Assembly: GCA_001725415.1 (NCBI GenBank)
Contig: MEGH01000020.1
Span: forward strand, 30,921 to 94,920
Origin: Pseudonocardia sp. SCN 73-27
Lineage (GTDB): Bacteria > Actinomycetota > Actinomycetes > Mycobacteriales > Pseudonocardiaceae
Length of the DNA: 64,000 nucleotides
Direction of reading: 5' to 3'
Shown: positions 3,648 to 40,425 of the stretch, piece after piece
How the letters are laid out: every line of letters starts with the position of its first letter
Position numbering within the stretch: the first letter of the stretch is position 1
Program-made: the position numbers and the translations under genes
The notes under the pieces: model-generated
Databases searched by the model: none
What the model was told of the DNA's origin: nothing
What the model saw: the letters and a program-made list of their open reading frames with translations, nothing else

Positions 3648-4598
3648 TCACGCGCTCCGGGGCGGGTCCGGACGCCGCCGGTCGGCGTCCTCGAGCCCGC
3701 GCCGGAGCGTGGCGAGGGTGCGCGACAGCAGCCGGGAGACGTGCATCTGTGAGAGCCCGAGCTCGGCGCCGATCTCGGACTGTGTCCTGTCCTCGAAGAA
3801 CCGCAGCACGAGGATCCGTTGCTCCCGGGCGGTCAGGCGGACGACCAGGGGGCGGAGTAGCTCCTGGTCCTCGATGTGCCCGAAGGCGGCGTCGACCGCC
3901 CCGAGGGTGTCGTAGGTGTCCCCGGTCTCGTCGTCGACGGCGCACAGGGGGGTGGCGTGCTGGTCGGCCTTGGCCGCCAGCGCCTCGACGACGTCCTCGC
4001 GGTCGACGCCGAGCGCGTCGGCCAGCTCGCTCGGCCGGGGTGCCCGGCCGAGCCGTTGCGCCAGCGGGTCGGACGCCTTCGCGATCGCGATGCCGAGGTC
4101 CTTGACCGGTCGGGGGACCGAGGTCGCCCACGTGCGGTCGCGGAAGTAGCGCTTGATCTCCCCGCGCACGCAGGGCACGAGGTAGCCGAGGAAGTCGCCC
4201 TTCGCGCGGTCGGGATCCCAGCGATCGATGGCCGCGACCATGGCGGCGGCGCCGGTCTGGACGAGGTCCTCGCGGCTGGTGTGGTGGCGGCCGGCGTAGC
4301 GGGCCACGACCTGCTCGACGACCGGCAGGAACGTGCTCACCAGCTGCTCCATGATCGTGTCGCGTTCGGGCGCGTCGTCGTCGAGTGCGGCGTAGCGGTG
4401 GAGCAGCGCCATCGGTCCGGGCCCGGTGCGATCGCCGGCCCCTCCGGGTGACGCGCGACCGCCCGTGGCGGGGAAGGACGGGTGGGCGCCGCCCGCCCGC
4501 TGCAGGTGCAGACGGTGTCCCGGCGCCCCGTCGACGGCCCCGGCCGCGACGACCCGCACGAGGTGGTGGTCGGGTCGCGGTGGAACGTCGGTGCTCAC
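3648..4598 (-). CDS. RNA polymerase sigma factor, SigB/SigF/SigG family
   Basis: Alternative sigma-70 factor of the SigB/F/G type (general stress, sporulation or osmotic control in actinobacteria), 316 residues from the chosen start. Region 2 is visible as 'REDLVQTGAAAMVAAIDRWD' then 'FLGYLVPCVRGEIKRYFRD', region 3 around 'RPSELADALGVD', and region 4 as 'LTAREQRILVLRFFEDRTQS' with recognition helix 'LGLSQMHVSRLL'. GTG at 4598 is chosen because GGGGAG lies just upstream and the start overlaps the stop of a 34-codon ORF (GTGA). The first 62 residues are low-complexity and have no family match; ATG at 4412 fits the usual family length of about 255 but has no ribosome site. No anti-sigma gene is adjacent. 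Confidence 0.92.
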   Translation of the reverse strand: MSTDVPPRPDHHLVRVVAAGAVDGAPGHRLHLQRAGGAHPSFPATGGRASPGGAGDRTGPGPMALLHRYAALDDDAPERDTIMEQLVSTFLPVVEQVVARYAGRHHTSREDLVQTGAAAMVAAIDRWDPDRAKGDFLGYLVPCVRGEIKRYFRDRTWATSVPRPVKDLGIAIAKASDPLAQRLGRAPRPSELADALGVDREDVVEALAAKADQHATPLCAVDDETGDTYDTLGAVDAAFGHIEDQELLRPLVVRLTAREQRILVLRFFEDRTQSEIGAELGLSQMHVSRLLSRTLATLRRGLEDADRRRPDPPRSA

Positions 4599-4873: not shown

Positions 4874-6013
4874 TCAGGCTTCGGCGGCCTCGCTCGGTGC
4901 GGTGGTCGCGGCGGGCGTGCGGGTCGTCGTGGACGTGCCGGTCGCCGGTTCGCCCTGTTCGAGCCGCTGCCGCTGGGGCACCACCGTGTACTTCGGGTCG
5001 TCGGCCGACTGCATGCCGGCGTGGAAGACGCCCCAGCGGGTGGCCGCGGAGGCGGCCAGCATCGCCGCACCGCAGACCGCGCTCGCGACTCGGCTTCGGC
5101 GGCCGAGCACCGCCCCGACGACGCCCGCCACGGACAGCAGCGTGCCCGCCCGGACGTAGGCACCGCCGCGGCCCTGGGAGTACACCTCGCCGACCATGCC
5201 GAGCCGGCGCTCCATGCGCTCGAACGTCGCCAGCTCGAGTGCGGTCCCGGCGAGGGCCAGTGCGCGGGCCGGACCCGTCTCCGCGACCGGTGCGGTGAGC
5301 AGCCCCAGCCCGCCCGCGGCGGTCGCCCCGGACCCGACGAACACGAACGGCATCTCGCGGTAGCCGTCGTGCCATGCGGGAACGGCGGTGTCGCTGATCA
5401 GCGCAGCGGTGTAGGAGGCGACGGCCGGGCCGAGCGTCGCCGCCGCGACCGTCGCGGCCGCCCCGGCGCGGGGGGCCCGCCCGGTCACCGCCGACGCGGC
5501 GGCGGCCCCGGCGACCGGGATGTAGCCCGCGAGCAGCCAGGAGCCGACGCTCATCGGCGAGGTCACCTTGAACACCCGGAGCATGTTCAGGAACCGCTGC
5601 GGTCTGCCGAGGTCGTGCACCAGACCGACCAGCGACAGGAACCCGGCGGCGACGGCGCCGACCTTGCTGCTCCGCTCCAGCCGCCGCCGTCCCGTCCGCT
5701 GGGCACCGGCACCCAGCAGGGACGCCGCTCCCGCGAGGCCGCCGAGGAACAGGTAGCCCGGGATGTCGGGGGCCTCCCACACCGGCTTGTTGATCACCGG
5801 TTCGGCGTAGTACGAGGTGAAGGTGGCGTCGGGGACCTGCGGGGTCTCCCCGCCGCGGCGCCGCCTGCCCCTGCCGCCGCGCGGTCTGCCCGTGGTGACG
5901 CCGGTGACGGCCTCGCGGTCGGGGCGCACGCCCCGCAGGCCGTCCTTCGTGACGTCGGTACCGGGGGTGCCGGCGCCCTGGCGCTCGCGTTCGACGGCGT
6001 CGTCGGTGGGCAT
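4874..6013 (-). CDS. nrfD: NrfD/PsrC-type membrane subunit of formate dehydrogenase
   Basis: Integral membrane protein of the NrfD/PsrC family, 379 residues, which passes electrons between the iron-sulfur subunit and the quinone pool. A basic, disordered N-terminus of about 65 residues is followed by 'PDIPGYLFLGGLAG', the conserved first helix of the family, then about seven more helices and a soluble tail. Start ATG at 6013 shares one base with the stop of the ferredoxin subunit (TGATG) and has AGGAGG before it. It is the last gene of the ctaC-to-nrfD operon. It replaces the cytochrome b subunit (FdnI) of E. coli formate dehydrogenase N, so no heme-binding b subunit is present. Quinone reduction is inferred from family and context. 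Confidence 0.85.
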   Translation of the reverse strand: MPTDDAVERERQGAGTPGTDVTKDGLRGVRPDREAVTGVTTGRPRGGRGRRRRGGETPQVPDATFTSYYAEPVINKPVWEAPDIPGYLFLGGLAGAASLLGAGAQRTGRRRLERSSKVGAVAAGFLSLVGLVHDLGRPQRFLNMLRVFKVTSPMSVGSWLLAGYIPVAGAAAASAVTGRAPRAGAAATVAAATLGPAVASYTAALISDTAVPAWHDGYREMPFVFVGSGATAAGGLGLLTAPVAETGPARALALAGTALELATFERMERRLGMVGEVYSQGRGGAYVRAGTLLSVAGVVGAVLGRRSRVASAVCGAAMLAASAATRWGVFHAGMQSADDPKYTVVPQRQRLEQGEPATGTSTTTRTPAATTAPSEAAEA

Positions 6014-6993
6014 CAGATCCTCCTTCCGGCGACGAACGCCGCGACGGCCGCGCCGACGAGCGTGGCCGCGGCCGCCCCGACCCGCCGCCACATCGCGGGC
6101 AGGTCCCGGGTCGTGACGACCGGGTCCGGGGGCAGCCCGTAGACCTCGGGCTCGTCGAGCAGCAGGAAGAACGCGCCGTCGCCGCCGACGCCGTCGTGCG
6201 GGTCCCGCCCGTAGAGGCGGGCGTCGGTCACCCCGCCGTCGTGCAGGCTCGCGAGGCGGGCGCCGGCACGTTCGCGCAGCTCGTCGAGCGGGCCGAACTG
6301 GATGGAGTCCGTGGGGCAGTTCTTGGCGCAGGCCGGCTCCTGCCCGACGGTCAGCCGGTCGTAGCACAGCGTGCACTTCCAGGCCCGGCCGTCGTCCTTG
6401 CGCTGGTCGATGACCCCGTACGGACAGGCGGGGATGCAGTAGCCGCAGCCGTTGCAGATGTCCTCCTGCACCACGACGGTCCCGAACTCGGTGCGGAACA
6501 GCGACCCGGTCGGGCAGACGTCGAGGCACGCGGCGTGGGTGCAGTGCTTGCACACGTCCGAGGCCATGAGCCAGCGCAGGTCGCCCGGGTCGCCGGGCGT
6601 GGTCGGAGTCGTCCCGGCCTCGTCGGGCGACGTGCCGGAGCCCTGCGGGGCGAGCGCGAGGACGTCGACGCCTTCGTGGAGGACACCCGGGTCCTGGACG
6701 GCGAGGGGTTTGCGCTGCTCGACGAACGCGACGTGGCGCCACGTGTCGGCGCCGAGCCCCTGGGTGTTGTCCATGGACATGCCGGTGAAGACCAGCCCGT
6801 CCTCGGGAATGGCGTTCCACTCCTTGCACGCGACCTCGCAGGCCTTGCAGCCGATGCAGACCGACGTGTCGGTGAAGAAGCCCATCCGCGGCGGATGGTC
6901 GGTCCAGCCGCCCTGGGCGGCGGGATCGGTGTCGCCGAGCAGGGCCCCGGTCAGGTCGGGCCTGCGGCCGATGGTGACGTCGACGGGGGCCAT
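6013..6993 (-). CDS. fdhB: Formate dehydrogenase iron-sulfur subunit (four [4Fe-4S])
   Basis: Electron-transfer subunit of the FdnH/HybA type, 326 residues. Sixteen cluster cysteines fall in four groups: 'CIGCKACEVAC', 'CKHCTHAACLDVC', 'CNGCGYCIPAC' and 'CTLCYDR' with 'CAKNC'. A hydrophobic segment at the extreme C-terminus ('AAAATLVGAAVAAFVAG') is a likely single membrane anchor, as in FdnH. There is no signal peptide. An insertion of about 45 residues, rich in Gly, Thr and Pro, lies between the first and second cysteine groups. It starts one base after the catalytic subunit ends and shares a base with the NrfD gene, so all three subunits are probably made in step. Confidence 0.93.
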   Translation of the reverse strand: MAPVDVTIGRRPDLTGALLGDTDPAAQGGWTDHPPRMGFFTDTSVCIGCKACEVACKEWNAIPEDGLVFTGMSMDNTQGLGADTWRHVAFVEQRKPLAVQDPGVLHEGVDVLALAPQGSGTSPDEAGTTPTTPGDPGDLRWLMASDVCKHCTHAACLDVCPTGSLFRTEFGTVVVQEDICNGCGYCIPACPYGVIDQRKDDGRAWKCTLCYDRLTVGQEPACAKNCPTDSIQFGPLDELRERAGARLASLHDGGVTDARLYGRDPHDGVGGDGAFFLLLDEPEVYGLPPDPVVTTRDLPAMWRRVGAAAATLVGAAVAAFVAGRRI

Positions 6994-6994
6994 G

Positions 6995-9900
6995 TCAGAT
7001 CTCCGTCCCGGTGTGCTCGGTGATGCCTGCCCGGCGCTGGTACTCCTTCACCAGCTCCACCCGCGCCGGCCCGCGCGGACGCCGGCCCGGCCGGATGTCG
7101 CACTGCCCGACCTTGACCTCCTGGATGTGGGAGTTGGGGTCGAGCGAGAGGTGCGCGAGGTCGTTGGCGGAGTCGCCGCGCGCGAGGCCTCCCTGCCCCC
7201 AGTGGTACGGCAGCCCCACGTGGTGCAGGACCCTGCCGTTGATCGTCATCGGCGTCATGCGCTCGGTGACCAGGACCCGGGCCTCGATGCAGTTGCGGGC
7301 CGTGACGATCGTCGCCCATCCGGCGTGCTCGAGCCCGCGCTCGCGCGCGAGCTCGGGGGAGACCTCGCAGAACATCTCCGGCGCGAGCTCGGCGAGATAG
7401 GGCTGGTAGCGGCTCATCCCCCCGGCCGTGTGGTGCTCGGCGATCCGGTAGGTGCTCATCATGTACGGGAACACCTCGGCCCCCGGCTCCGAGCCGCTGG
7501 GCTGGAACCGGTCGTCCGGATGGACCATCGACAGGATCTGGCGGACCGGGTTGCGCTGCTGGGAGTACAGCAGGTTGGGCACCGGGGACTCCTGGGGCTC
7601 GTAGTGCGTCGGCAGCGGACCGTCGGTCAGCCCGGCCGGTACGAACAGCCACGACTTCCCGTCGGCCTGCATGACGAACGGGTCCACGCCCGCCAGCGCC
7701 TCGGCGCCGCTCGCGTCGGTGGGCGGCCGGTAGTGCGGTGACTTGGAGGCGGTGAAGTCGGGGATGTCGTGCCCCTGCCAGAGCGCCTTCTCCTCGTCCC
7801 ACCAGACGAGTGCCTTGCGCGCGCTCCAGGGTTTGCCGTCCGGGTCGGCGGAGGCCCGGTTGTAGAGCACGCGGCGGTTCGCGGGCCATGCCCAACCCCA
7901 CTGGTTCGCCACCCAGTTCTGCTCCGTCGCCGGCGTGCGTCGCGACGCCTGGTTGACCCCGTCCGAGTAGACGCCGCAGTAGATCCAGCAGCCGCACGCC
8001 GTGGAGCCGTCATCGTTGAGCTGCTCGTAGGAGCTCAACGGCCCACCCTCGGCATCCCAGCCGTTGATCTCGGCGAGGACCGCCTCGGCCTCGGGCTCGA
8101 CGTCGCCGGGGTGGGACTGCAGCGGCGTGGTCGGGTAGTCCCACGTGAGATCCAGGAGCGGGCGGTCCATCTCGTCGGTACTGCCCGCGAGCTTCTCCCG
8201 GATCCTGCGGCCCAGGTGGAAGGCGAACCACAGGTCGCTGCGGGCGTCGCCGGCCGGTTCGACGGCCTGGTGGTGCCACTGCAACATCCGCTGGGTGTTG
8301 GTGAAGCTGCCGTCCTTCTCGGTGTGCGCGGCGGCCGGCAGGAAGAACACCTCGGTGCCGATGTCCTCGGTGCGCAGCTCGCCGGTCTCGATCTCGGGCC
8401 CGTCCTTCCACCAGGTGGCGGACTCGATGAGCGAGAAGTCGCGCACGACCAGCCACTCGAGATTGGCCATGCCCATCCGCTGCATCTTCGCGTTGGCCGA
8501 CCCGACCGCCGGGTTCTCGCCCAGCACGAAGTAGCCCTTGCAGTTCCCGGCCAACTGGGCCATCACGGTCTCGTACGTGGAGTGGCTGCCGGTGAGCCGC
8601 GGCAGGTAGTCGAAGCAGAAGTCGTTCTCCGGTGTCGCGGCCGGACCCCACCAGGCCTTGAGCAGGCTCACCGTGTAGGCCCGCATCTCGGCCCAATAGC
8701 CCTTGCGCGGGGACTCGCCCTCGATGAACGAGTCGAGATCCATGTGCGCGTGCGCGTGCGGCATCGGGATGTAGCCCGGCAGCAGATTGAACAGCGTCGG
8801 GATGTCGGTGCTGCCCTGGATCGAGGCGTGCCCCCGCAGGGCCATGATCCCGCCGCCCGGACGACCGATGTTGCCCAGCAGCTGTTGGAGCACGGCGGCG
8901 GTGCGGATGTACTGCACCCCGACGGTGTGCTGCGTCCAGCCCACGGAGTAGACGAACGCGCTGGTCCGGTCCCGGCCGGAGTTGTCGGTCAGCAGCTCGC
9001 AGACCTGACGGAACGTGTCCTGGGGGACGCCGCAGATCTGCTCGACCATCTCCGGGGTGTAGCGGGCGTAGTGCCGCTTGAGGACCTGGTAGACGCAGCG
9101 CGGGTGCTGCAGCGTCGGGTCGACCTCGGGTTCCCCGGCGATCGCCGCGCCGCCCGAGCCGTGGGCCTCACCGCGCCCGGACTGGCGCACGCTCTTGCTG
9201 CTGGCCCTGCCCTTCTTCGTGCCGGGATGGTCCTCGTACTCCTGGTCGCGCTGGCCCGAGGCGGCCTGGACCTCCATGCCCTCGTACTGCCAGGTGTGGA
9301 AGTCGTAGGTGCGCTCCTCCGTGTCCAGCCCGGAGAAGACGCCGTCGAGGTCCTCGGTGTCGCGGTACTCGTCGGTGAGGATGGTGCCGGCGTTGGTGTA
9401 CGCGACGATGTACTCGCGGAAGTCCTTCTCGTTGGCCAGGACGTAGTTGATGATCCCGCCGAGGAACGCGATGTCCGTGCCGGCACGCAGCGGGACGTGG
9501 AGGTCGGCCAGCGCGCTGGTCCGGGTGAACCGCGGGTCGACGTGGATCACCGTCGCGCCGCGGGCCTTGGCCTCCATCACCCACTGGAACCCGACGGGAT
9601 GGCACTCGGCCATGTTCGATCCCTCGAGCACGATGCAGTCGGAGTTCTGCAGGTCCTGCTGGAAGGTCGTGGCGCCGCCGCGACCGAACGAGGTCCCCAG
9701 ACCGGGGACGGTGGCGGAGTGTCAAATACGGGCCTGGTTCTCGATCTGGATCGCGCCCAGTGCCGTGAACAGCTTCTTGAGCAGGTAGTTCTCCTCGTTG
9801 TCCAACGTCGCGCCGCCGAGAGAGGCCAGGCCCATGGTGCGGCGCACGCGCGCGTCGTCGGACTTCCACTGCCAACCCTCGCGGCGGGTGGCGACGACCC

Positions 9901-10288
9901 GGTCGGCGATCATGTCCATCGCCGTGTCGAGGTCGAGCTCCTCCCACTCCGTGCCGTGGGGGCGCCGGTAGCGGACCTTGTACTCGCGCGCGGAGCCCGT
10001 CACCAGCTGCAGCGTCGACGACCCGCGCGGGCAGAGCCGCCCACGGCTGACCGGGGAGTCGGGGTCGCCCTCGACCTGCACGACCTTCTCGTCCTTGACG
10101 AACACGTTCTGCCCGCAGCCGACGGCGCAGAACGGGCAGATCGACTTGACGACCTTGTCGGCCGTGGCCGACCGGGGCGCGAGCGTGGCGCTGCGGCGAC
10201 TCTTCACGGCTGCGGCCCGACCCAGCGGGTCGTTGCCGGTGAGCTGCCGGTAGACCGGCCATTCTTCGATCCAGGTCTTCACACCCAT
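6995..10288 (-). CDS. fdhA: Selenocysteine-containing formate dehydrogenase, catalytic subunit
   Basis: Molybdopterin formate dehydrogenase, 1097 residues with an in-frame TGA at codon 189 (bases 9722-9724) read as selenocysteine. The context 'NQARI-U-HSATVPGLG' is the FDH Sec active-site motif. Before it are the N-terminal [4Fe-4S] cysteines C51, C54, C58 and C86. After it come 'GSNMAECHPVGFQWVMEAK' (molybdopterin domain) and the C-terminal dinucleotide-binding domain ending near 'LPYHWGQGG'. A SECIS-like hairpin follows the TGA. Without recoding the gene would be called as two pieces split at 9722. No Tat signal or hydrophobic leader is present, so the active site probably faces the cytoplasm, unlike E. 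coli FdnG. GGAGG precedes ATG 10288. selA/B/C/D are not in this window. Confidence 0.94.
9693..9724 (-). promoter_or_regulatory. SECIS element for UGA recoding in fdhA
   Basis: Twelve bases after the in-frame UGA the mRNA folds into stem GUCCCC / GGGGAC with a five-base loop GGUCU. The E. coli fdhF SECIS carries the same GGUCU loop, the part bound by SelB. Spacing and a small apical loop fit a bacterial SECIS. Hairpin seen; SelB recognition inferred from the family. Confidence 0.82.
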
Positions 10289-10319
10289 TGCAGGCCTCCT
10301 CGGTCGGGGTGGTGGGTCG

Positions 10320-11117
10320 TCAGCGGTTCTCGGCGGCGAGGATCTGTTCCCCGAGCTCGCGGCGTCGCTCGTCGGGCATGGCGTCCTTCAGGAGGAGGAA
10401 GAGCCGCTCCTCGTGGGCCATGTGCTTGCGCAGCAACAGGATCAGCTTCTGCACCGTCTCGTCGAACTCGTCGGTGCCGGGGTCGAGACGGCCCAGCTCG
10501 GCGAGGGTGTCCTTGCCCTGCTGCTCCTGCTCGTCCGCCTCGTCGGCCCAGCGGTCACCGTCCGGGAGCGCGGCGCGCACGGCGGGCCAGAAGAACTGCT
10601 CCTCCAGCGCCTCGTGCTGCGACAGCCGGACGGTGATCATGTCGACGACGGTCTTGCGCAGCTCCTGCTGGGACCGGTTGCCGCCCGAGGAGTGACCGGG
10701 CAGCGCCGCCAGCTGTTGTTGCAGGTACCTGACCTGGTTGTGGTCCCGGGTGAGGACGACGAGGACGTCGTGCTCCTCGCTGGGATCGTCGATCTCCGGG
10801 GGCTCGGGCGTCCGCTGTCGCGCGGCGTCCTGCATCTGCGCGTCGGCGCCGGCCCGGGCCTCGACCCAGTCGAGGACGGCCTGTTTCGTCGTCGGGTTCT
10901 CCGCGTGGATGCCGAGCAGGTGCTGCGCGGTGGGCAGTACGCCGGGCCGCTGCCGCTGCCGCTGCCGCTCCTGCTCGGTGCAGGTGTCGCTGCCGTCGGC
11001 GGGCATCCCGGTTCCGATGAGGTAGGCCTGCCCGGCGGGCACACCCAGGCGCGCCCCGATCGTCTCGTAGTCGAGCCCCTGCTCGACGAGAGCACGGACC
11101 TGTTCACGGGTGGGCAC
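10320..11117 (-). CDS. Hemerythrin HHE-domain protein
   Basis: Cytoplasmic non-heme di-iron protein of 265 residues. The N-terminus (about residues 1-45, 'YETIGARLGVPAGQAYLIG') looks like a helix-turn-helix. A Gln/Arg-rich linker is followed by a hemerythrin four-helix bundle from about residue 115, with iron-ligand candidates in 'TRDHNQ', 'LSQHEALEEQ' and 'RKHMAHEERL'. GTG at 11117 is supported by GGAGGA. It overlaps the preceding membrane-protein gene by 14 bases and ends 31 bases before fdhA, so it sits exactly between the oxidase and formate dehydrogenase halves of the operon. O2 sensing or storage, or iron/NO protection, are the usual roles; which applies here is unknown. Confidence 0.85.
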   Translation of the reverse strand: MPTREQVRALVEQGLDYETIGARLGVPAGQAYLIGTGMPADGSDTCTEQERQRQRQRPGVLPTAQHLLGIHAENPTTKQAVLDWVEARAGADAQMQDAARQRTPEPPEIDDPSEEHDVLVVLTRDHNQVRYLQQQLAALPGHSSGGNRSQQELRKTVVDMITVRLSQHEALEEQFFWPAVRAALPDGDRWADEADEQEQQGKDTLAELGRLDPGTDEFDETVQKLILLLRKHMAHEERLFLLLKDAMPDERRRELGEQILAAENR

Positions 11118-11598
11118 GACCGGTTCCTCCTCCTGTCACGGTCGCGGGCGCGACCTCCTGCGCGGCGACCGCGGCCGCCTCCTCCGCGCGGGCCCACCGG
11201 ACGGTGAGCGCCAGCGCGGCGAGCCCCATCGGCAGCATCGCGACGATCATGGCGATGCCGCCGGGTCCGTCGCCGCGTGCGACGAGCCACACCCCCGGCA
11301 GGTCGAGGGCCGGCATCGTCGCGAAGAGCAGGACTGTGCGGCCGGGTGGTGACAGTGCCCGGCGGCCGAGGACCGGTCCCCAGAACAGGACACCGCCCAC
11401 GAGCAGCACGACCGGTCCGATCCCGGCCATGGCGGGCACCAGGGTCGCCGCGGCGTGGAGCAGCACGAACCCGGGCGCGACGACGACCGCGGGCAGGGCG
11501 GGCGGCTCGATGCCCAGGGCTCGCAGGGTCAGCAGCAGCAGGGGGGCGAGCACCGACACCAGCAGTCCGTCGGCCCCCATGTGGACGACGTCGTTCAC
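11104..11598 (-). CDS. Unknown membrane protein of the oxidase operon (164 aa)
   Basis: Hydrophobic protein with four or five predicted helices ('ADGLLVSVLAPLLLLTLRAL', 'AVVVAPGFVLLHAAATL', 'GPVVLLVGGVLFWGPVLG', 'GIAMIVAMLPMGLAALAL'). GTG at 11598 is chosen because GGAGG lies seven bases before it and because it overlaps the upstream stop (GTGA). I do not recognise a family. Position after ctaC, ctaD and another membrane protein suggests an accessory subunit or assembly factor of the heme-copper oxidase. It lacks the length and seven-helix pattern of subunit III. Confidence 0.75.
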   Translation of the reverse strand: MNDVVHMGADGLLVSVLAPLLLLTLRALGIEPPALPAVVVAPGFVLLHAAATLVPAMAGIGPVVLLVGGVLFWGPVLGRRALSPPGRTVLLFATMPALDLPGVWLVARGDGPGGIAMIVAMLPMGLAALALTVRWARAEEAAAVAAQEVAPATVTGGGTGRAHP

Positions 11599-12212
11599 GT
11601 CCGCCTCCGGAACGCGCGGAGGAGCCCGCGCACCACGGCCGCTGTGGCGACGGCCGCCACGACGGGCCGGGCGGGCTCCTGCGGCGATGTCGGGTCCGCG
11701 GGTACGAGCTCGCGGACGGGATGGGTGCCCGGGACCGCGACGGCCGCGCCCGTGGCCGTGCCGTCGTGGACCTGCCGGTGCACCCCGGGGGCGGGGGGCA
11801 TCCCGTCGAGTGCCGCGGGCTCCGGGCGGACGCCGGCCGCGACGCGCTCGCCGCGGACCAGCACCGCGGCGGTGGCCAGCGGGTAGAGCGCCACGAGCAG
11901 CCACATCCAGCCGTAGGCCAGCGACAGCCCCGCGACCGTCAGCCCGAGCGCGGTGAACACGGCGGCCGTGCTGCGCACCGGCATCCGCACGCTCGTGCCG
12001 ACGCCGCGGCCCGAGCGCAGGGCGACCACCACGGCCAGCCCGAAACCCGACAGCAGCACCAGGTCGAACAGCCACAGCAGCATCGAGATCGGCTGCGCCC
12101 GGAAGCCGAGCATCAGCCCGGCGAGGACGCCGTTCCCGGCGGTCCACGCGCCGACGACGAGATGTCCCGACCGCAGCTCGCTGCGGCGCGGCCGGGTGAG
12201 CGCGGCCGTCAC
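11595..12212 (-). CDS. Unknown membrane protein of the oxidase operon (205 aa)
   Basis: About four helices in the first 120 residues ('GNGVLAGLMLGFR', 'LLWLFDLVLLSGFGLAVVVA', 'AVFTALGLTVAGLSLAYGW', 'WLLVALYPLATAAVLV'), then a Pro/Ala-rich soluble stretch and a short C-terminal hydrophobic segment with a basic tail. GTG at 12212 overlaps the ctaD stop (GTGA) and the gene overlaps the next start the same way. No family recognised. It holds the place where ctaE (subunit III) or a subunit IV gene would be expected, so it may be a divergent accessory subunit. Confidence 0.75.
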   Translation of the reverse strand: MTAALTRPRRSELRSGHLVVGAWTAGNGVLAGLMLGFRAQPISMLLWLFDLVLLSGFGLAVVVALRSGRGVGTSVRMPVRSTAAVFTALGLTVAGLSLAYGWMWLLVALYPLATAAVLVRGERVAAGVRPEPAALDGMPPAPGVHRQVHDGTATGAAVAVPGTHPVRELVPADPTSPQEPARPVVAAVATAAVVRGLLRAFRRRT

Positions 12213-13846
12213 CGGGCAGCCTCCCGCAGGTCGAGCAGCGGTGCGTAGCTGCGGATCGGCGGCACCGGGTGGTCGGGGTCGAAGTTGTGCGGGGGCGGGG
12301 GCGACGAGGTGGCCCACTCGAGGGTGAAGCCGCCCCACGGGTCAGCGGGGGCGCGCCGCGGTCGCCGGATCGAGATCACGACGTCGACCAGGAAGATCAC
12401 GGTTCCGATCGCGAGCAGGCCGGAGCCGAGGGTGGCGATCAGGTTGGCGGTGCCGAAGCCGTCCTGGGGCAGGTACGTCGAGATGCGCCGGGGCATGCCC
12501 TCCAGCCCGAGGAAGAACATCGGGAAGAACGTCACGTTGGTGCCGACGAGCCAGAACCAGAAGTGCGCCTTCGCGAGCCGCTCCCGCAGCTGCAGACCCG
12601 TGGCCTTCGGGAACCAGTAGTAGAACCCGGCGAAGAAGCCGAACAGGCTGCCGGCGGCGAGTGTGTAGTGCCAGTGGGCGACGATGAAGTAGGAGTCGGT
12701 GACCTGGTAGTCGACCGGCGGCGTCGCGATCATGATCCCGGTGAGGCCGCCGACGAGGAACTGCGGCACGAAGGCCAGCGCGAACAGCATCGGTGCGGGG
12801 AAGCGCAGCCTGCCGCCGACCAGGGTGGCGAGGAAGCCGAAGTACTCCATCCCGGCCGGGACGAGCAGCAGGATCGACGTGAGCGAGTAGTAGTCGTTCT
12901 CCGCCTGGCCGGTGCTGAACATGTGGTGGCCCCACACGCTCATCGACAGTGCCGCGAAGGCGAGCAGCGACACCACGGTGATCTTGTAGCCGAAGTAGCG
13001 GCGGGCCCCGAACACGGCGAGCACCTCGGCGACCGCACCGACGAACGGGAAGAACATCACGTAGACGACCGGGTGTCCGAAGAACCAGAAGACGTGCTGG
13101 TAGCCGATGTTCCAGATGTTCTCGTCGAAGAGGTCGGGGTTCACCCGGCCGACGCCGAGGATTCCCATCGCCACCAGCAACGACGGGAACGCCCCGATCG
13201 TCATCAGGTTGGTCGCGACGACCGACCACGTGAAGACCGGCATGCGCAGCAAGGTCATCCCCCTGGTGCGCTTGACCAGGGCCGTCCACAGCACGGTGGC
13301 CGCCATGAGCAGCATCCCGAGCCCGGCGAGGGCGACCCCGACGATCCAGAGGTCGACGCCCGGGCCCGGGGTGAAACGCGTACTCGCCAGGGGCGGGTAG
13401 GCGTACCAGCCGTGGTCGGCGGCGCCGGTCGAGGTCGCGAACCCGGAGAGCATCGTGACGGCGCCGCCGGCGTAGAGCCAGTAGCCGAGCATCGTGGTGC
13501 GCGGGGCGGCGACGTTCGGGGCGCCGATCTGCAGCGGTACCAGGTAGAGCCCCAGACCGATTGCGAACGGCGTCATGACCAGGTAGATCATCCCCGAGCC
13601 GTGGATGGTGAAGAACTGGTCGTAGCGCTCGGGGGTGAGCACGGTCATCTGCGGACGGGCCAGCTGGGCGCGCATCGTCAGCGCCAGCGCGCCGATCACC
13701 ACGAGCAGGGTGACCGCCGTCCCGAGGGTGAGCAGACCGATCCGTTTGTGGTCGGTGCTGGTCACCCATGACAGGACCGTGGTGCGGGTCCGGCGCGGGA
13801 CGGGCCGCGGCTCGTCGTGCGGGACGCGGGGTTCGGTGGCGGTCAT
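12209..13846 (-). CDS. ctaD: Heme-copper oxidase subunit I with non-canonical proton channels
   Basis: Catalytic subunit of a cytochrome c-type terminal oxidase, 545 residues, about 12 helices. All metal ligands are visible: H82 (low-spin heme), H258 with the Tyr partner Y262 in 'FGHPVVY', H307-H308 (CuB) in 'WGHHMFSTG', and H391/H393 in 'AHWHYT'. Key proton-channel positions differ from A-type enzymes: the usual GAPDMAFPR reads 'GAPNVAAPR' (D to N at 111), the channel-end Glu of HPEVY is V260, and PTGIK reads 'PAGME' (K to E at 334). No YS substitute motif is present. ATG 13846 overlaps the ctaC stop (ATGA). O2 reduction is expected from the ligands and Tyr; how protons enter is an open question. 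Confidence 0.9.
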   Translation of the reverse strand: MTATEPRVPHDEPRPVPRRTRTTVLSWVTSTDHKRIGLLTLGTAVTLLVVIGALALTMRAQLARPQMTVLTPERYDQFFTIHGSGMIYLVMTPFAIGLGLYLVPLQIGAPNVAAPRTTMLGYWLYAGGAVTMLSGFATSTGAADHGWYAYPPLASTRFTPGPGVDLWIVGVALAGLGMLLMAATVLWTALVKRTRGMTLLRMPVFTWSVVATNLMTIGAFPSLLVAMGILGVGRVNPDLFDENIWNIGYQHVFWFFGHPVVYVMFFPFVGAVAEVLAVFGARRYFGYKITVVSLLAFAALSMSVWGHHMFSTGQAENDYYSLTSILLLVPAGMEYFGFLATLVGGRLRFPAPMLFALAFVPQFLVGGLTGIMIATPPVDYQVTDSYFIVAHWHYTLAAGSLFGFFAGFYYWFPKATGLQLRERLAKAHFWFWLVGTNVTFFPMFFLGLEGMPRRISTYLPQDGFGTANLIATLGSGLLAIGTVIFLVDVVISIRRPRRAPADPWGGFTLEWATSSPPPPHNFDPDHPVPPIRSYAPLLDLREAAR

Positions 13847-14529
13847 GCGGTGGCCCCGCCCGGGAGCGCGCCGGTCTGCAGGAAGCTCTGGTACTGGTCG
13901 TCGGGGACGGCGCGGACGTAGAAGTCCATCGTCGTGTGGTGGGTACCGCAGTACTCCGAGCACCGGCCCAGCCACTGCCCGGCGTCGGGGAACGTCATGA
14001 CCAGCGAGTTCACGTGGTCGGGGTAGGCGTCGCGCTTCACCGCGAGCTGCGGGATCCAGAACGCGTGCACGACGTCGCGGGAGGTGAGCGAGAACTCGAC
14101 CGGGCGGCCCTGCGGGACGACGATCACCGGCCGGTCACCCGGCGTGGCGCACGAACCGGTGACGGACGTGCTCGACCCCGGGTAGCTCGCGCTCCAGCAC
14201 CACTGGAAGGCGGTGACCGCGACCTGCACCGGTGCCGCGCCCGCGGCCACCGCCTGGGGCCCGGACCCGGCCTGGGTGTCGGTGTAGTCGAGCGCGTGGT
14301 TGTTCGACAGGCTCAGCCACACGAGGAACGCCGCGGCGCCGCCGAGGACGACGGCGAAGCCGATCTCGACCGCGTTGTGCTCGGCCGCGGCGAACGGCAG
14401 CTTGTCGCGGCGGCGCGCCCGGTTGAGGACGATCGCACCCACCAGCAGGGCCGTCACCAGGACGAACACCCCGCCCGCGATCCAGAGCTGGATCCCGAAC
14501 ACGTGGTCGAACACAGCGCGGTAGTCCAC
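13843..14529 (-). CDS. ctaC: Cytochrome c oxidase subunit II (CuA)
   Basis: Electron-entry subunit of the oxidase, 228 residues. Two N-terminal helices ('GIQLWIAGGVFVLVTALLVG' and 'IGFAVVLGGAAAFLVWLSL') anchor an extracytoplasmic cupredoxin domain. The binuclear CuA site is complete: His in 'DVVHAFWIP', and 'GRCSEYCGTHHTTM' gives two Cys, Glu, His and Met. No lipobox is present. There is no fused cytochrome c domain, so electrons must come from QcrC or a separate carrier; in actinobacteria the diheme QcrC does this directly. First gene of the minus-strand operon, divergent from qcrB across a long palindrome. Confidence 0.92.
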   Translation of the reverse strand: MDYRAVFDHVFGIQLWIAGGVFVLVTALLVGAIVLNRARRRDKLPFAAAEHNAVEIGFAVVLGGAAAFLVWLSLSNNHALDYTDTQAGSGPQAVAAGAAPVQVAVTAFQWCWSASYPGSSTSVTGSCATPGDRPVIVVPQGRPVEFSLTSRDVVHAFWIPQLAVKRDAYPDHVNSLVMTFPDAGQWLGRCSEYCGTHHTTMDFYVRAVPDDQYQSFLQTGALPGGATA

Positions 14530-14564: not shown

Positions 14565-14668
14565 GCGCTGCAGCCCCTACCCCGGGACCCGATCCGCAAA
14601 CCCGGGTCGCTCCCGGCGCAGGGACGCCCGCGTTTGCGCTCCGGGCCCGGGGGTAGGGGCTGCAGCGC
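14565..14668. repeat. 104-bp imperfect palindrome between ctaC and qcrB
   Basis: Outer arms are a perfect 19-base inverted repeat (14565-14583, GCGCTGCAGCCCCTACCCC, and 14650-14668). Pairing continues inward with few mismatches through CGCAAAC / GTTTGCG, so roughly 40 of 52 bases per side can pair. It fills most of the divergent intergenic space and must overlap control signals for one or both operons. Confidence 0.8.
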
Positions 14669-14716: not shown

Positions 14717-16216
14717 GTGGGGCTGGTCGCGCGGGCGCTGACGCGCGGAGCCGCCGATGCCGTGGACCGGCGCTACTCGGTCGCGAGCGCCGCGCGACGG
14801 CAGGCGTCGCACGTGTTCCCGAAGCACCACTCGTTCTTCTGGGGCGAGATCGCCTTGTACTCGTTCGTGGTGCTGGTGCTCTCCGGCACCTACCTGGCGC
14901 TCTACTTCGTGCCGGACACCACCGAGGTCGTCTACACCGGACCGTACGCACCCTTGCAGGGGCTGTTCGTGTCGCGGGCCTACGACTCGGCGCTGAGCCT
15001 GTCGTTCGAGGTGCGGGCCGGCCTGTTCGTGCGGCAGCTGCATCACTGGGCCGCGCTGCTGTTCGTGGCGGCGATGATCCTGCACATGGCCCGGAACTTC
15101 TTCACCGGTGCCTTCCGGCGACCGCGGGAGCTGACCTGGCTGGGCGGGGTCGCCCTGCTCGCGATCGGGATCTTCGAGGGCTACCTCGGGTACTCGATGC
15201 TCGACGACCTGCTGTCCGGCCTGGGCGTCCGGATCTTCTCCGGGTTGCTGCTCTCGGTGCCGGTGGTCGGTACGTGGCTGCACTGGCTGGTGTTCGGTGG
15301 GGAGTTCTTCGGCGACATCTGGATCTCCCGGTTCTTCATCGCCCACGTCCTGGTGCTCCCCGGGCTCCTCGTGGCGCTGATCGCGGTGCACGTCGGGCTC
15401 GTCTGGTACCAGAAGCACACGCAGTTCCCGGGTCCGGGCGCGCGCGAGGACACCGTCGTGGGGGAGCGGGCGCTACCGGGCTTCGCGTCCAGGACCGTCG
15501 CGAACGGGGTGTGCGTGCTGGCCGTCCTCGGGCTGCTCGCGGGGGTGTTCCAGATCAACCCCGTGTTCCTGTGGGGGCCGTACACCCCGACGCAGGTGTC
15601 GACGTACATCCAGCCCGACTTCTACGCGGGGTTCCTCATCGGGGGGCTGCGGCTGTGGCCGCGCTGGGAGTTCCATCTCGGCGACCACACCGTGGCGGCC
15701 CCGTTCTGGGTGGGGCTCGTCCTGCCGCTGCTCATGTTCGCGCTGCTCGCGCTGTACCCGTGGCTGGAACGGCTGCGCACCGGCGACCACGCGCCCCACC
15801 AGGTGCTGCAACGCCCGCGCGACGACGCGACCCGCACCGGGATCGGCGCGATGGGACTCGTGTTCTGGGGCATCCTGTTCGCCTCCGGTGCGACCGACGT
15901 GCTCGCATCGACGTTCGACGTGCCGTTCGAGTACCTCGTGTGGGCGGGCCGGATCGGGCTGCTCGTCCTGCCGCCACTGGCGTTCGTCGTGGTCAGAGGT
16001 GTCTGTCGTGGACTGCAGCGCTCCGACCGCGACGCCCTCGAACACGGCGTCCACACCGGTGTCCTGCAGGAGGGCCCCGACGGCGTGTACGTGGAGCTGC
16101 GCCGTCCCCCTGGCGGAGCCGACCGCGCCGGACGTCCCGTCCCGCTGCGCTACGGCGGTTCCCGGATCGACCGGCGGCCCGACACCGGGGCCGACCAGAC
16201 CGAGGAGCAGCGATGA
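14717..16216 (+). CDS. qcrB: Cytochrome bc1 complex cytochrome b subunit
   Basis: Quinol-oxidising b subunit, 499 residues. Heme ligands are visible in helix B ('RQLHHWAALLFVAAMILHMA') and helix D ('IAHVLVLPGLLVALIAVHVG'). The Qo-site PEWY motif reads 'PDFY', a variant of the PDWY common in actinobacteria. About eight or nine helices precede a soluble C-terminal tail. GTG 14717 follows AGGAGG by seven bases. Gene order here is qcrB-qcrC-qcrA, whereas the common actinobacterial order is qcrC-qcrA-qcrB, and no ctaE precedes it. It feeds QcrC and, presumably, the divergently encoded oxidase. Confidence 0.93.
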   Translation: MGLVARALTRGAADAVDRRYSVASAARRQASHVFPKHHSFFWGEIALYSFVVLVLSGTYLALYFVPDTTEVVYTGPYAPLQGLFVSRAYDSALSLSFEVRAGLFVRQLHHWAALLFVAAMILHMARNFFTGAFRRPRELTWLGGVALLAIGIFEGYLGYSMLDDLLSGLGVRIFSGLLLSVPVVGTWLHWLVFGGEFFGDIWISRFFIAHVLVLPGLLVALIAVHVGLVWYQKHTQFPGPGAREDTVVGERALPGFASRTVANGVCVLAVLGLLAGVFQINPVFLWGPYTPTQVSTYIQPDFYAGFLIGGLRLWPRWEFHLGDHTVAAPFWVGLVLPLLMFALLALYPWLERLRTGDHAPHQVLQRPRDDATRTGIGAMGLVFWGILFASGATDVLASTFDVPFEYLVWAGRIGLLVLPPLAFVVVRGVCRGLQRSDRDALEHGVHTGVLQEGPDGVYVELRRPPGGADRAGRPVPLRYGGSRIDRRPDTGADQTEEQR

Positions 16217-17007
16217 TGCGTCGGCTGCGCAACGTCGCGCTGATCGTCGTGGCCCTGGCCGCCGTCGGCGGCGTGTACGCGCTGCTCGTGCCGTCACCGC
16301 AGACCGCCGTCGCGCAGACAGCGGACACGGCGCGGACCGCGCAGGGCCGGGCTCTGTACGAGCAGGCCTGCATCAGCTGCCACGGGGCGAACCTGCAGGG
16401 CGAACCCGGGCGGGGTCCCGGCCTCACCGGCGTGGGCGACGCGGCCGTCTACTTCCAGGTCTCGACCGGCCGGATGCCGCTGGCGGGCCCGCAGGACCGC
16501 GGCTACCGCAAGGCGCCGGCACCGGAGTTCGACCCGACCACCGAGCAGGGCAGCGCGAACCTGGCGGCGCTGGGTGCCTACGTCGAGGCGAACGGCGGCG
16601 GGCCGACGACGCCGACGACGCCCGGCGACCAGCTCATCGGCTCCGACGTCGCGCACGGCGGAGAGCTGTACCGGCTGAACTGCGCGTCGTGCCACAACTT
16701 CACCGGCCGCGGCGGCGTGCTCGCCGACGGGCGCTACCCACCGCGGCTCGACGGCGCGACCCCGACTCAGATGTACACCGCGATGCTCAGCGGCCCGATG
16801 GCCATGCCCGTGTTCAGCGACCAGCAGCTGACGCCCGAGGAGAAGAAGGACATCATCGCCTACGTCGTCTCCGTCCGGGGACAGAACAACGCGCCCGGCG
16901 GGTTCGGCCTCGGCGAGCTCGGCCCCTCCACCGAGGGCGTCATCGCGTTCGTGGTGGGCCTTGCCACCCTCGTCGGCGTCGCCGCCTGGATCGGGGCCCG
17001 GACGTGA
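16213..17007 (+). CDS. qcrC: Diheme cytochrome c subunit of the bc complex
   Basis: Membrane-anchored diheme cytochrome c, 264 residues. Signal-anchor helix at residues 7-26, heme motifs CISCH at 53-57 and CASCH at 157-161, and a C-terminal helix ('GVIAFVVGLATLVGVAAWIG'). In actinobacteria this subunit replaces a soluble cytochrome c and docks directly on the CuA subunit. ATG 16213 overlaps the qcrB stop (ATGA); a second ATG follows immediately. The gene ends in a GTGA overlap with qcrA. Confidence 0.95.
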   Translation: MMRRLRNVALIVVALAAVGGVYALLVPSPQTAVAQTADTARTAQGRALYEQACISCHGANLQGEPGRGPGLTGVGDAAVYFQVSTGRMPLAGPQDRGYRKAPAPEFDPTTEQGSANLAALGAYVEANGGGPTTPTTPGDQLIGSDVAHGGELYRLNCASCHNFTGRGGVLADGRYPPRLDGATPTQMYTAMLSGPMAMPVFSDQQLTPEEKKDIIAYVVSVRGQNNAPGGFGLGELGPSTEGVIAFVVGLATLVGVAAWIGART

Positions 17008-18125
17008 GCACCCCGCGCGAGCCCACCGGGCACGAGCTCGAACGGATGAGCCGCTCCGAGCTGGTCGAGCTCGGCGGCTCGCTCGACGGCGTCCAGGTCG
17101 TCTCCGACGAGCCGGCACATGGCTCCGACACCCCGGACCGGGAGCGGCGCAGCCGCCGCCTGGTCACGCTGCTGCTGGTGCTGTCGCTGCTGTGCGCCGC
17201 GGGTTTCGTGTGGGCGTACCTGTTCTGGCCCACCGGTTACGTGCCGCCGGGTGCGCCGGGCCACACCGCCTACCTGCTGTACACGCCGCTGATCGGGCTC
17301 ACGTTCTTCGGGGCGGTGGGGGCGCTGGGCGTGGCCCTCGTCGTCTACGTACGACGCTTCTACCCCGACGAGGTCGCCGTGCAGCACCTCGAGCGGGGCC
17401 CGTCGCCGGAGAAGGACCGGTTCACCGCGGCCGCGACCTTCGCCGAGGCCGGTGCGCACACGGGGTTCGGCCGCCGCACCATGATCCGTCGGCTCGGCCT
17501 CACCGGGTTCGGCGTCATCGGCATCATGGGCGGTCTCGTCGCGGTCGGCGGACTGGTCCGCAACCCGTGGCGGCAGGGCACCGACGCTGCACTGTGGACG
17601 ACGGGGTGGAAGCCCACGGGCGACGAGCCGGTCTTCCTCCGCGTCGCCGCGGGCGACCCGCGGGAGATCGTCAAGGTCCGGCCCGAGGACCTGGAGCCGG
17701 CCTCGATCCTCACCGTCGTGCCGTTCCGGGAGAGCGAGCGCGACGACGTCGAGAAGAACCACGACGCCGAGATGGCCCCGGACAACCCGGTGGTGCTCAT
17801 CCGGCTGCCGGCCGGGACGCACGTGACGAACCCGCCGGGCCGTGAGGACCTGCACCACGGTGACTACTACGCGTTCTCCAAGGTCTGCACCCATCTCGGC
17901 TGCCCTGCCGCGCTGTACGACACCCAGTTGCAGGTGATCCTGTGCCCCTGCCACCAGTCGGAGTTCCGGATCACAGAGGGCGCGCGGCCGGTCTTCGGGC
18001 CCGCGGCCCGCCCGCTGCCGCAGCTGCCGATCACCGTCGATGCCGACGGGTACTTCGTGGCGCGCAGCGACTTCCTCGACCCGGTGGGCCCCAGCTTCTG
18101 GGAGATGCGCCGCGGGAGCCGGTGA
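17004..18125 (+). CDS. qcrA: Rieske iron-sulfur subunit of the bc complex
   Basis: Rieske [2Fe-2S] protein, 373 residues, with the three N-terminal helices typical of actinobacterial QcrA ('LVTLLLVLSLLCAAGFVWAY', 'LIGLTFFGAVGALGVALVVY', 'GVIGIMGGLVAVGGL'). Cluster motifs 'CTHLGC' and 'CPCHQS' lie near residues 295-320 and include the disulfide cysteines. A twin-arginine-like 'FGRRTMIRRLG' precedes the third helix, as in homologues inserted by the Tat system. GTG 17004 overlaps the qcrC stop. The gene ends three bases from the convergent mrpD stop, with no room for a terminator. Confidence 0.95.
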   Translation: MSTPREPTGHELERMSRSELVELGGSLDGVQVVSDEPAHGSDTPDRERRSRRLVTLLLVLSLLCAAGFVWAYLFWPTGYVPPGAPGHTAYLLYTPLIGLTFFGAVGALGVALVVYVRRFYPDEVAVQHLERGPSPEKDRFTAAATFAEAGAHTGFGRRTMIRRLGLTGFGVIGIMGGLVAVGGLVRNPWRQGTDAALWTTGWKPTGDEPVFLRVAAGDPREIVKVRPEDLEPASILTVVPFRESERDDVEKNHDAEMAPDNPVVLIRLPAGTHVTNPPGREDLHHGDYYAFSKVCTHLGCPAALYDTQLQVILCPCHQSEFRITEGARPVFGPAARPLPQLPITVDADGYFVARSDFLDPVGPSFWEMRRGSR

Positions 18126-18128
18126 GCC

Positions 18129-19940
18129 TCAGCCGAGGGCGACGGGGAGCCCGACGAGGGCGCCGAGGAGTGCGACGCCGACGACGAGCCAGGCCGCGTA
18201 GTCGCCGACGTGGCCGGAGTGCAGGGCGCGCAGCCCACGCGCGGTCGAGGCGGCGGCCCGCGGCGTCGGAACGCGACGGCCGCTGACGGAGACCGCGGCC
18301 AGCAGGGCGGCAAGGACCGCGCCGACGGTGCCGGTCAGGAGGGCGGCGAGGTCCCACCCGGGCAGGTGCGGCGCAGCGACCGGTGGCGCGGAGCCGGCGA
18401 GGGTCGCGGCGGTGTAGCTGTCACCGTCGAGGAACCGGGCGGCCGCGCTCCCGATCCCGGCGACGAGCCCGGGCGACGACCAGGGAACGACGCCGACCGC
18501 GAGTCCGCCCGCCGCCAGCACGACGATCGGTACCAGCATGGTGAGCGGCAGGGGCTCGAGCAGCCTGCCGACCTCGGGTTCCTCCTCGCCGGTCGTCTCC
18601 TCGGCACGCTTGCCCTGCGGGGCGGGGCCCCAGCCGCGGAACGTCCGCACCCCGAACCGCACGATCGCCCCGCCGGTCACGGCGGCCACCGCCACGAACA
18701 GTGGCGTCGCCCACCCGGGCGAGGCCTCCTCGGCGAGCGCCTTGCCCCAGCCCGTCCCGAACGGTGGCAGCCCGGCCAGCGCGAGCCCGCACAGCGGCAT
18801 CAGCCATGACAGCAGGACCGCGTGCCGACCGCGGCCGTGCAGCTCGTGCTCGTCGACGCTGCCGTAGTGGTTGAGCACCGCCCCGGCCATCAGGAACAAC
18901 GCCCCCTTCAGCAGCGCGTGCCCGACGACGTACACCAGCACCCCGGCGGTCGCGGCGGCGTCGGCCGTCGCGAGGGCGACCAGGAACAGGCCGCCGTGGG
19001 CGATGGTCGAGTACGCCAGCAACCGTTTGAGGTGCCGCTGCTGCCAGCACATCACCGCGCCGACCAGCGCCGTCAGCGCGCCGAGGACGAGCAGGGCGTC
19101 GCGCAGGTCGTCGGCGGGCAGGGCGTCGGCGAACACGACCGAGCGCACCCGGACCACCCCGTAGAGGCCGAGCTCGACCATGATCCCGGAGAACAGCACA
19201 CAGACCGGGGACGGGGCGACGGCGTGCGCGTCGTCGAGCCAGAAGTGGAAGGGCACGACAGCGGCCTTGACCAGGAACCCCGTCACCACCAGGACGAACG
19301 CGGCCACCACCAGCGCGTCCGGCGGCCTGCCCGCGAGCGCGTCGTGCAGCGGTGCCGTCCCGAGCGCCCCCGCCCGCGCGTAGAGCAGCCCGATGCCGAA
19401 CAGCGTCACGTACGCGCCGAGGGAGTTGACGACGCCGAACGTCAGCCCGCCCTGTACGGCCTGTGCGTCCTCGGTGCGCAACCCCGTCAGCGCGTACGCG
19501 GCCACCCCCATGAGCTCGAAGAACACGAACATGTCGAAGAGGTCGCCGGAGTAGGCGAACCCCGTCATGCCGGCCAGGAACAGCAGCACGAGCGCGTGGT
19601 AGTGCGCCTCGGCGGAGTCGAAGTACCGCCAGCCGAACACGAGCGCCGCGACGGTCAGCACCGCTGCGAGCAGCGCGGCACCGGCCGCGACCGGATCGGC
19701 GAACAACGCGATGCCGACGGTGACGCCGCCGACCGGGGACCAGCCGCCCACCCAGGTGACCGCGGGCCCGCCGGTGACCCCGAGCAGCACCACCACGTCG
19801 ACGGCGACGACGAACGCGGCGACACCCGTGGCGACGGCGTCGACGACACGGTGCGGGAGCCACCTGCCCACGCCCAGGACGACGCACGCGGTCAGCACCG
19901 GGACGGCGATCGCGAGGGGTGGCAGGTCCGGGACGGTCAT
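18129..19940 (-). CDS. mrpD: Mrp/Mbh antiporter large subunit MrpD-like
   Basis: Proton-translocating antiporter subunit related to NuoL/M/N, 603 residues and about 14 helices. The conserved core is visible: '[13 protein letters not shown]' with the TM5 Glu, '[20 protein letters not shown]' with the TM7 Lys, and '[16 protein letters not shown]' with the TM8 region. A hydrophilic loop rich in Glu/Lys ('[16 protein letters not shown]') is inserted near residue 445. It is the last gene of the seven-gene module and the only NuoL/M/N-type subunit in it. ATG 19940 overlaps the mrpC stop. Confidence 0.88.
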
Positions 19941-20275
19941 CCCTTCAGGCCCGTCAGGTCGTCGGGGTCGGTCGTGCCGTGGCGGCGGGCGATCTGCAGC
20001 GACAGCGCGAGCAGCAGCGCGGTGACCGTCGCGGACACGACGACGTCGGTCAACGTGAGGGCCTGCACGACGGGATCGACGAGCGGGCCCGCGAACGACC
20101 CGGCCAGCGGCGGTCCGGCGCCGCGCTGGTAGCCGACCGCGACGAGCAGGACGTAGCTGCCGGACTGGGCGACCGACAGGCATACGACCGCGTGCACGAG
20201 GTCGCGGCTGCGGACGACGCCGAAGACACCGACCAGCAGCAGCCACCCGGCGACTCCGTATGCGAGGACCGTCAT
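19937..20275 (-). CDS. mrpC: MrpC/NuoK-like antiporter subunit
   Basis: Small three-helix protein, 112 residues, of the MrpC/MnhC/NuoK family. '[21 protein letters not shown]' is helix 2 and '[20 protein letters not shown]' begins helix 3, the conserved block 'P.PQALVLTDIVI' of the family. Four-base overlaps join it to mrpB and mrpD. It forms part of the membrane channel linking the small subunits to MrpD. Confidence 0.88.
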
Positions 20276-40373: not shown

Positions 40374-40425
40374 GGCTGGTGTTCCTCCTCGTGGTCGGTC
40401 CGGGCGTGCGGGCCCGGCCGCCGGA

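Follow-up and report, generated by a model that had tools for sequence, protein, structure and literature searches.

Among solved structures, the closest match to the terminal oxidase discussed here is the actinobacterial bcc-aa3 oxidase (M. smegmatis-type CtaD, PDB 6adq and relatives), which matches at an E-value of 4e-140 the CtaD encoded in a stretch of Pseudonocardia sp. SCN 73-27 (contig MEGH01000020.1, positions 30,921-94,920; 64 kb, hereafter the window, from a genome of 6.95 Mb in 99 contigs). The two share the metal ligands, a CuA subunit II and a partner QcrBCA. Unlike bcc-aa3, the window oxidase lacks the residues of the D and K proton channels, scores below the NCBIfam cut-offs, has no recognised subunit III (none was found among nine window proteins scanned with Pfam and NCBIfam) and belongs to a separate clade. 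Its genes adjoin those of a selenocysteine (Sec) formate dehydrogenase (FDH; Table 1). The promoter form GTTT-N15-17-GGGTA of the actinobacterial SigF/SigB general-stress regulons is also that of the window promoters; what differs from those regulons is the target, a formate:O2 respiratory module.

Described Sec-FDHs of actinomycetes include three in Actinomycetospora chiangmaiensis DSM 45062, an aerobe in which formate removal is strongly selenium-dependent and formate builds up, reaching a molar ratio of about 0.6, when no selenium is added (PMC7176365), and one in Streptomyces incarnatus, encoded with selABCD (PMC4498112). By description these enzymes resemble that of the window, with a membrane-bound Sec FdhA of ~1080-1090 amino acids (aa), partner subunits and sel genes; the available portions of text describe no link to an oxidase. 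Natural K- and D-channel variants are described, in the part of the account available, among archaeal family A oxidases (PMC8239418). In the present case a bacterial CuA oxidase has lost the residues of both channels and carries an invariant Glu at K362, a combination that this part of the account does not describe. Our literature search, which mostly did not extend to subscription papers, yielded no recognised description of an FDH-oxidase pairing or of a CuA oxidase without both channels, and no paper joining SigF, formate dehydrogenase and hemerythrin.

We read the locus as encoding a respiratory branch from formate to oxygen that is induced by stress and whose terminal oxidase probably does not pump protons, a reading to which we give a probability of roughly 0.55. 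Its most surprising feature is the oxidase itself. In what we take to be Rhodobacter sphaeroides numbering, the window CtaD has V260 at E286, E334 at K362, A331 at T359, A273 at S299, N111 at D132, T118 at N139 and L100 at N121. In all 23 members of its clade E286 is Val, T359 is Ala, K362 is Glu and D132 is never Asp. In 22/22 clade sequences S299/T359/K362 read Ala/Ala/Glu, leaving no canonical K channel, and none of the D-channel residues N121, D132, N139 and E286 is retained in any of the 22. The clade has Asn, Ala, Thr, Gly or Arg at D132, Thr or Ala at N139, Leu, Val or Thr at N121, and Thr, Ala or Cys at the position we presume to be N207. Across the eight columns N121/D132/N139/N207/E286/S299/T359/K362 the pattern x-x-x-x-V-A-A-E holds in all 18 clade rows of our alignment and in 4/4 held-out loci fetched later; L026, a near copy of L025, agrees over the stretches inspected. 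In the 26 canonical rows aligned with them, these columns hold N, D (Glu once), N, N, E, S/T, T and K (Leu in three).

The catalytic centre, by contrast, is kept. The heme and CuB His ligands and the cross-link Tyr (seven active-site positions) are present in 23/23 members, and the CuA motif CxExCGxxHxxM of subunit II in 17/17 (pattern matching for 16 loci, inspection by eye for the window; L192-L195 stand outside this count). The preliminary description called the enzyme a CuA oxidase; it has the CuA subunit and the metal ligands, but it is not an ordinary aa3 oxidase. CtaD and CtaC both pass Pfam (COX1 and COX2), and both fall below the curated cut-offs: for CtaD, 553 vs 880 with NF050116 (actinobacterial aa3) and 542 vs 671 with TIGR02891 (general CtaD); for CtaC, 127 vs 250 with NF050117 and 125 vs 148 with TIGR02866. 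The source genome holds a separate canonical CtaD, whose nearest row in our tree is that of Pseudonocardia sp. MH-G8, and the channel-less oxidase is therefore an extra one. Nitric oxide (NO) reductases also lose D/K residues, as would suit a CtaD homologue that reduces a substrate other than O2 (NO, for example) or acts as a sensor; however, NO reductases lack the cross-link Tyr, and its conservation together with that of the CuB His and the CuA motif makes this reading very improbable.

In canonical enzymes the loss of E286 or K362 is crippling, and to judge from the alignment both canonical proton pathways are erased throughout the clade. An oxidase with fixed Val, Ala, Ala and Glu and an intact active site must, if the residues are read correctly, draw its protons from another source. 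Pumping along the known route is most likely absent from the channel-less CtaD, and the simplest reading we infer is a non-pumping oxidase working at low back-pressure. A normally pumping enzyme, functionally an ordinary aa3 oxidase with a clade-specific path that is H-like or runs around E334 and polar neighbours, would fit the invariance of E334 and that of R59 and Y386 (13/13), which we presume to lie at bovine R38 and Y371. In the available text of PMC12901375 an H-pathway is said to exist in A-type bacterial enzymes, and the K-pathway mutants K319M and T316A leave the oxidative phase unaffected, so that another pumping route remains conceivable. We nevertheless consider normal pumping unlikely: the loss takes in seven to eight D/K residues at once, E286 among them, and mutation of its bovine counterpart (E242Q) blocks the oxidative phase (PMC12901375, same portion).

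The clade is monophyletic with support of 100/100 (18 clade rows in a 44-row tree), and support remains 100 (Shimodaira-Hasegawa-like approximate likelihood ratio test) after removal of the eight channel columns; the Paraconexibacter row sits on a long branch. Family, genus and named-genome scans combined give at least 23 carrier genomes: 17 of 297 family genomes, in 9 of 46 genera (E up to 1e-150); 7 of 62 genus genomes (E 1e-200), three of the seven being already in the family count; and at least two further carriers among the matches listed for named genomes. Of the 80 loci ranked best in the named-genome scan, three are channel-less (Amycolatopsis taiwanensis, Streptomyces carpinensis and Paraconexibacter antarcticus); the other 77 show the canonical signature. 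Phylum-wide scans may miss more distant clade members; with that limit, the window's own genome is the sole clade carrier at 1e-150 in 396 phylum genomes, 20 of which match the window CtaD at E 1e-150 or better, and it is also the sole match when the Paraconexibacter CtaD is the query at 1e-150. Twenty phylum-sample loci besides that of the window all have E286 and T359, with Leu at K362 in three and Glu at D132 in one. In the same sample, the CtaD of L179, L185 and L186 has an intact D channel and Leu at K362, a loss of the K-channel lysine only. We considered and rejected plasmid carriage of the clade: 157 plasmid records match CtaD, all at less than 60% identity to that of the window (69 are from Rhodococcus and 26 from Streptomyces).

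Sec FDH genes adjoin the oxidase in 13 of the 23 carriers. Four arrangements occur: the oxidase genes come first, as in the window (window, L025, L026, L192, L193 and L194, all members of the genus); the FDH genes come first, with both modules on one strand (L031, L034, L035 and L038); the modules are divergent (L032 and L039); or they are interleaved (L072). The linked or unlinked state requires six changes on the 18-row tree, which was built before the four held-out loci were available. The preliminary description had claimed a single-strand run of eight genes, from ctaC to nrfD, with short overlaps and one gap. All eight do lie on the minus strand, at the positions given there, with spacings of -4, -4, -4, -14, +31, +1 and -1 bases, of which only the last two had been omitted. 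Five of the six other genus carriers share this order, the fifth gene being without its hemerythrin part in four of the five and matched only partly in L192. Homologues are thus not always split, and it is unlikely that the run is coincidental. The ctaC-ctaD-(m3)-m4 module is present in 16/16 family loci, with qcrB next on the same strand in 14/16.

The association extends beyond adjacency. The FDH family is present in 17/17 family carriers vs 175/297 family genomes overall (1e-150), a co-occurrence with p = 9e-5 if genomes were independent, which through kinship they are not. Mere chance neighbourhood, in which an FDH cluster and a duplicate set of oxidase genes share an island of stress genes with no joint function, would account for the STAS-, CBS- and sigma-factor-like genes seen by eye near several unlinked copies, and for the stress-type motif before FDH genes with or without an oxidase. 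Against four arrangements, six linkage changes, an eight-gene order in 6/7 genus carriers and an FDH in every family-sample carrier, we regard it as highly improbable. Joint function of oxidase and FDH is supported by recurrence and a shared promoter type. A recurring unit of FDH and oxidase genes with the bc complex is likewise supported by these comparisons, and would be consistent with a chain from formate through quinone and bc complex to the oxidase. The formate:O2 chain proposed in the preliminary description fits this unit; it had not foreseen that the oxidase is unusual, that the hemerythrin is not fixed and that the promoters are of stress type.

The window FdhA has the features of the actinobacterial Sec formate dehydrogenases of NF041513, as judged by its score, its in-frame UGA, a stem like a selenocysteine insertion sequence (SECIS), and a tRNA-Sec and SelB, both above cut-offs and 5.5 kb apart in the source genome. 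An in-frame UGA is found in 30/30 of the best FDH loci (15 from oxidase carriers and 15 from non-carriers), and the stem after the UGA has paired changes, seen by eye across 33 sequences. By eye, no N-terminus resembling a twin-arginine translocation (Tat) signal is seen in nine FdhA sequences, and formate oxidation is therefore probably cytoplasmic. Unlike FDH-N, whose reaction moves charge outward, the FDH step here would not. A sequence search of NrfD against PDB returned no match. In Streptomyces carpinensis fdhA has a SelD-like gene (by eye) as its neighbour, close to the oxidase module (L072:3438-4529).

On sight of the sequence upstream of ctaC we took its promoter to be of SigF/SigB type. 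The window contains exactly two perfect motifs (N14-17), where a first-order model would predict 0.1; both lie in the gap that separates ctaC from qcrB, back to back. In the relatives, where perfect means an N15-17 spacer within 220 bases upstream and the background of the same loci is 0.0054 per region, the motif is enriched: a perfect site precedes ctaC in 5/17 non-window loci and fdhA in 4/8, and the four held-out genus loci have two perfect and two one-mismatch sites before ctaC. With the window included, perfect sites stand before the N-domain gene, the fifth of the run, in 1/11 loci, before qcrC in 0/8 and before qcrA in 0/11. None was found upstream of canonical genes (0/32 ctaC and 0/74 ctaD, 0/106 in all), with six sites in 2.92 million strand-bases of these loci. 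In one genome (G041) perfect sites precede both modules although these lie on different contigs, which suggests that the oxidase and FDH modules may belong to a shared regulon. The promoters point to expression in stress or stationary phase rather than to a dedicated formate-growth operon, if the motif is a guide to the sigma factor used. The sigma-factor gene after nrfD is a possible regulator of the locus; its protein has matches in 0/12 other linked stretches and a match in L029.

Along with the K-pathway and H-pathway data above, several observations weigh against the reading of a stress-inducible formate branch. The four fdhA sites include an identical pair, from two loci of the same genus (L034 and L035). 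A perfect site before qcrB is found in only 1/18 loci, that of the window, and in 1/3 held-out loci, and 8/18 ctaC genes are without a site even at one mismatch. Most of the canonical controls are loci of other families, and their motif background is lower. The FDH genes of non-carriers have the motif as often as those of carriers (perfect sites in 4/15 vs 5/15; at most one mismatch in 12/15 vs 8/15), and the FDH promoter is therefore not specific to the pairing. Moreover, fdhA was not found in the fetched stretch of 10/23 carriers (L027, L028, L029, L030, L033, L036, L037, L040, L090 and L195), of which L040 and L195 are on short contigs, L195 with a partial fdhB-like match at one end. Finally, the FDH would feed any other oxidase of the cell too.

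The fifth gene of the run is the least constant. Its hemerythrin domain in the window is clear (PF01814, 43.9 bits, cut-off 25.3), and its N-domain gives weak helix-turn-helix (HTH) matches below cut-offs. In L025, L026, L031, L032, L034, L035 and L038 the corresponding protein has ~100 aa and no hemerythrin domain; L192 and L194 also lack the domain, L192 matching the N-domain in part only, and L039 has no such protein. The domain is thus missing in 10/12 other FDH-linked loci and present only in L072 and L193. Among the 30 best FDH loci, 22 have the N-domain upstream and four a hemerythrin fusion (G000, which is the window's own, G121, G069 and G035), all four in oxidase carriers vs 0/15 in non-carrier loci. 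At the metal-binding positions as we assume them, each of the five aligned fusions has Glu or Gln in place of the third-helix His, and the stand-alone copy of L040 is also without it; the hemerythrins of L036 and L037 have this His. We tried the hemerythrin as a general key joint of the operon and rejected it, the domain being optional across linked loci. Stand-alone hemerythrin genes adjoin the oxidase module at L036:5509-6090 and L040:7464-8060, with FDH not adjacent there.

These data bear on the suggestion, made in the preliminary description, that the hemerythrin buffers or senses O2. With the domain missing from most linked loci and the fused copies short of one expected His, that role is weak; the domain appears optional and its ability to bind O2 doubtful. 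A wider form of the idea is respiratory protection, in which the oxidase would serve mainly as an O2 scavenger for an oxygen-sensitive Sec-FDH, hemerythrin variants would hold O2, and energy conservation would be secondary. Non-pumping chemistry suits fast O2 removal, and the confinement of the fusions in the FDH sample to carriers, those of L072 and L193, and the stand-alone genes beside the oxidase in L036 and L040 would all fit. The same absences of domain and His count against it, as does an aerobic actinomycete that removes formate with related-looking Sec-FDHs and whose account does not, in the available main text, contain the words cytochrome or oxidase (PMC7176365); we think protection improbable as the main role.

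Under our preferred reading, of a formate branch ending in a probably non-pumping oxidase, a SigF/SigB-type sigma factor would activate the divergent ctaC and qcrB promoters. The Sec-FDH would oxidise formate, probably on the cytoplasmic side, and electrons would pass through FdhB and NrfD to menaquinone. From menaquinone they would travel by way of QcrBCA to CuA in CtaC and then to the heme/CuB site, at which CtaD would reduce O2 to water. Substrate protons could enter from the outer side, or along a path involving the Glu that is fixed at K362. In stressed or starved cells the branch would dispose of electrons and use up O2 against little energetic back-pressure. That the clade at large reduces O2 without a D or K pathway, either non-electrogenically with protons from outside or along a new path built on Glu, and that a stress sigma factor deploys it as the uncoupled terminus of formate respiration, is a more tentative proposal, which we judge somewhat less probable than the branch itself.

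A conserved family that has kept its catalytic centre and lost its D and K residues is a natural experiment on proton pumping. The proton-pumping wiring of cytochrome oxidase (D-pathway vs H-pathway) is still debated, according to the portion of PMC12901375 available; if these enzymes turn over without pumping, or pump anyway, the question is opened to direct test. Their repeated association with Sec-FDH under stress-type promoters suggests that aerobic actinomycetes may use formate as a fuel for survival or as an outlet for surplus electrons.

Table 1. Features of the oxidase-formate dehydrogenase locus and its flanks (coordinates in the window)
Feature	Coordinates	Strand	Description
Sigma factor gene	3648..4538	-	SigB/SigF/SigG-like; next downstream of nrfD; TIGR02980 222.2 bits, below cut-off 234.35
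nrfD	4874..6013	-	NrfD-type membrane quinone subunit; PF03916 50.6 bits
fdhB	6013..6993	-	4Fe-4S beta subunit; C-terminal hydrophobic stretch (by eye)
fdhA	6995..10288	-	Selenocysteine formate dehydrogenase alpha; 1097 aa including Sec; NF041513 2000 bits (cut-off 1400)
SECIS-like stem-loop	9693..9709	-	GUCCCC-GGUCU-GGGGAC; downstream of UGA
In-frame TGA	9722..9724	-	Read as selenocysteine; context NQARI-U-HS
Fifth gene, FDH-associated	10320..11117	-	N-domain residues 1-100 (weakly HTH-like); hemerythrin domain ~113-265
m4	11104..11598	-	Short membrane protein; weak CtaG (oxidase assembly factor) match below Pfam cut-off
m3	11595..12212	-	Small membrane protein of oxidase module; no known family
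ctaD-like	12209..13846	-	Subunit I; 545 aa; member of channel-less clade
ctaC-like	13843..14529	-	CuA subunit II; 228 aa; PF00116 64.7 bits; CuA motif CSEYCGTHHTTM
Promoter upstream of ctaC	14578..14601	-	SigF/SigB-type, GTTT-N15-GGGTA
Promoter upstream of qcrB	14632..14655	+	SigF/SigB-type, GTTT-N15-GGGTA
qcrB	14717..16216	+	Cytochrome b subunit; NF050120 603 bits (cut-off 500)
qcrC	16213..17007	+	Diheme cytochrome c; two CxxCH; NF050122 312 bits (cut-off 200)
qcrA	17046..18125	+	Rieske subunit; start uncertain; NF050121 317 bits (cut-off 275)

The qcr genes are divergent from the oxidase run, and all three score above the NCBIfam cut-offs for actinobacterial bc1 subunits. The two small membrane proteins of the oxidase module are less easily placed. 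m4 resembles a shortened CtaG, with a PF09678 match at E<=0.1 in 5/8 members (best 7e-6) and the window copy below the cut-off; nothing credible was found for it in PDB. An identity for m3 was sought in Pfam and PDB profile searches, with nothing credible, and m3 itself was not found at E 1e-4 in L031, L036, L037, L038 and L040. An Rfam scan of the window at gathering score gave zero matches, and PADLOC none on five window proteins.

Adjoining qcrA is a gene for a MrpD/NuoN-type antiporter subunit (Proton_antipo_M; window 18129-20510, minus strand), and a Mrp-like run is seen by eye near the oxidase in L033 as well. Further along, the window encodes a large oxidase linked to flavin adenine dinucleotide (FAD), with Fe-S domains (40306-44205, plus strand). 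A similar-looking FAD-linked oxidase, with a thiamine pyrophosphate (TPP) enzyme, is seen by eye close to the oxidase module in L029 (L029:13959-17339, minus strand), and the FAD-linked Fe-S oxidases of both loci are possible other quinone-reducing partners.

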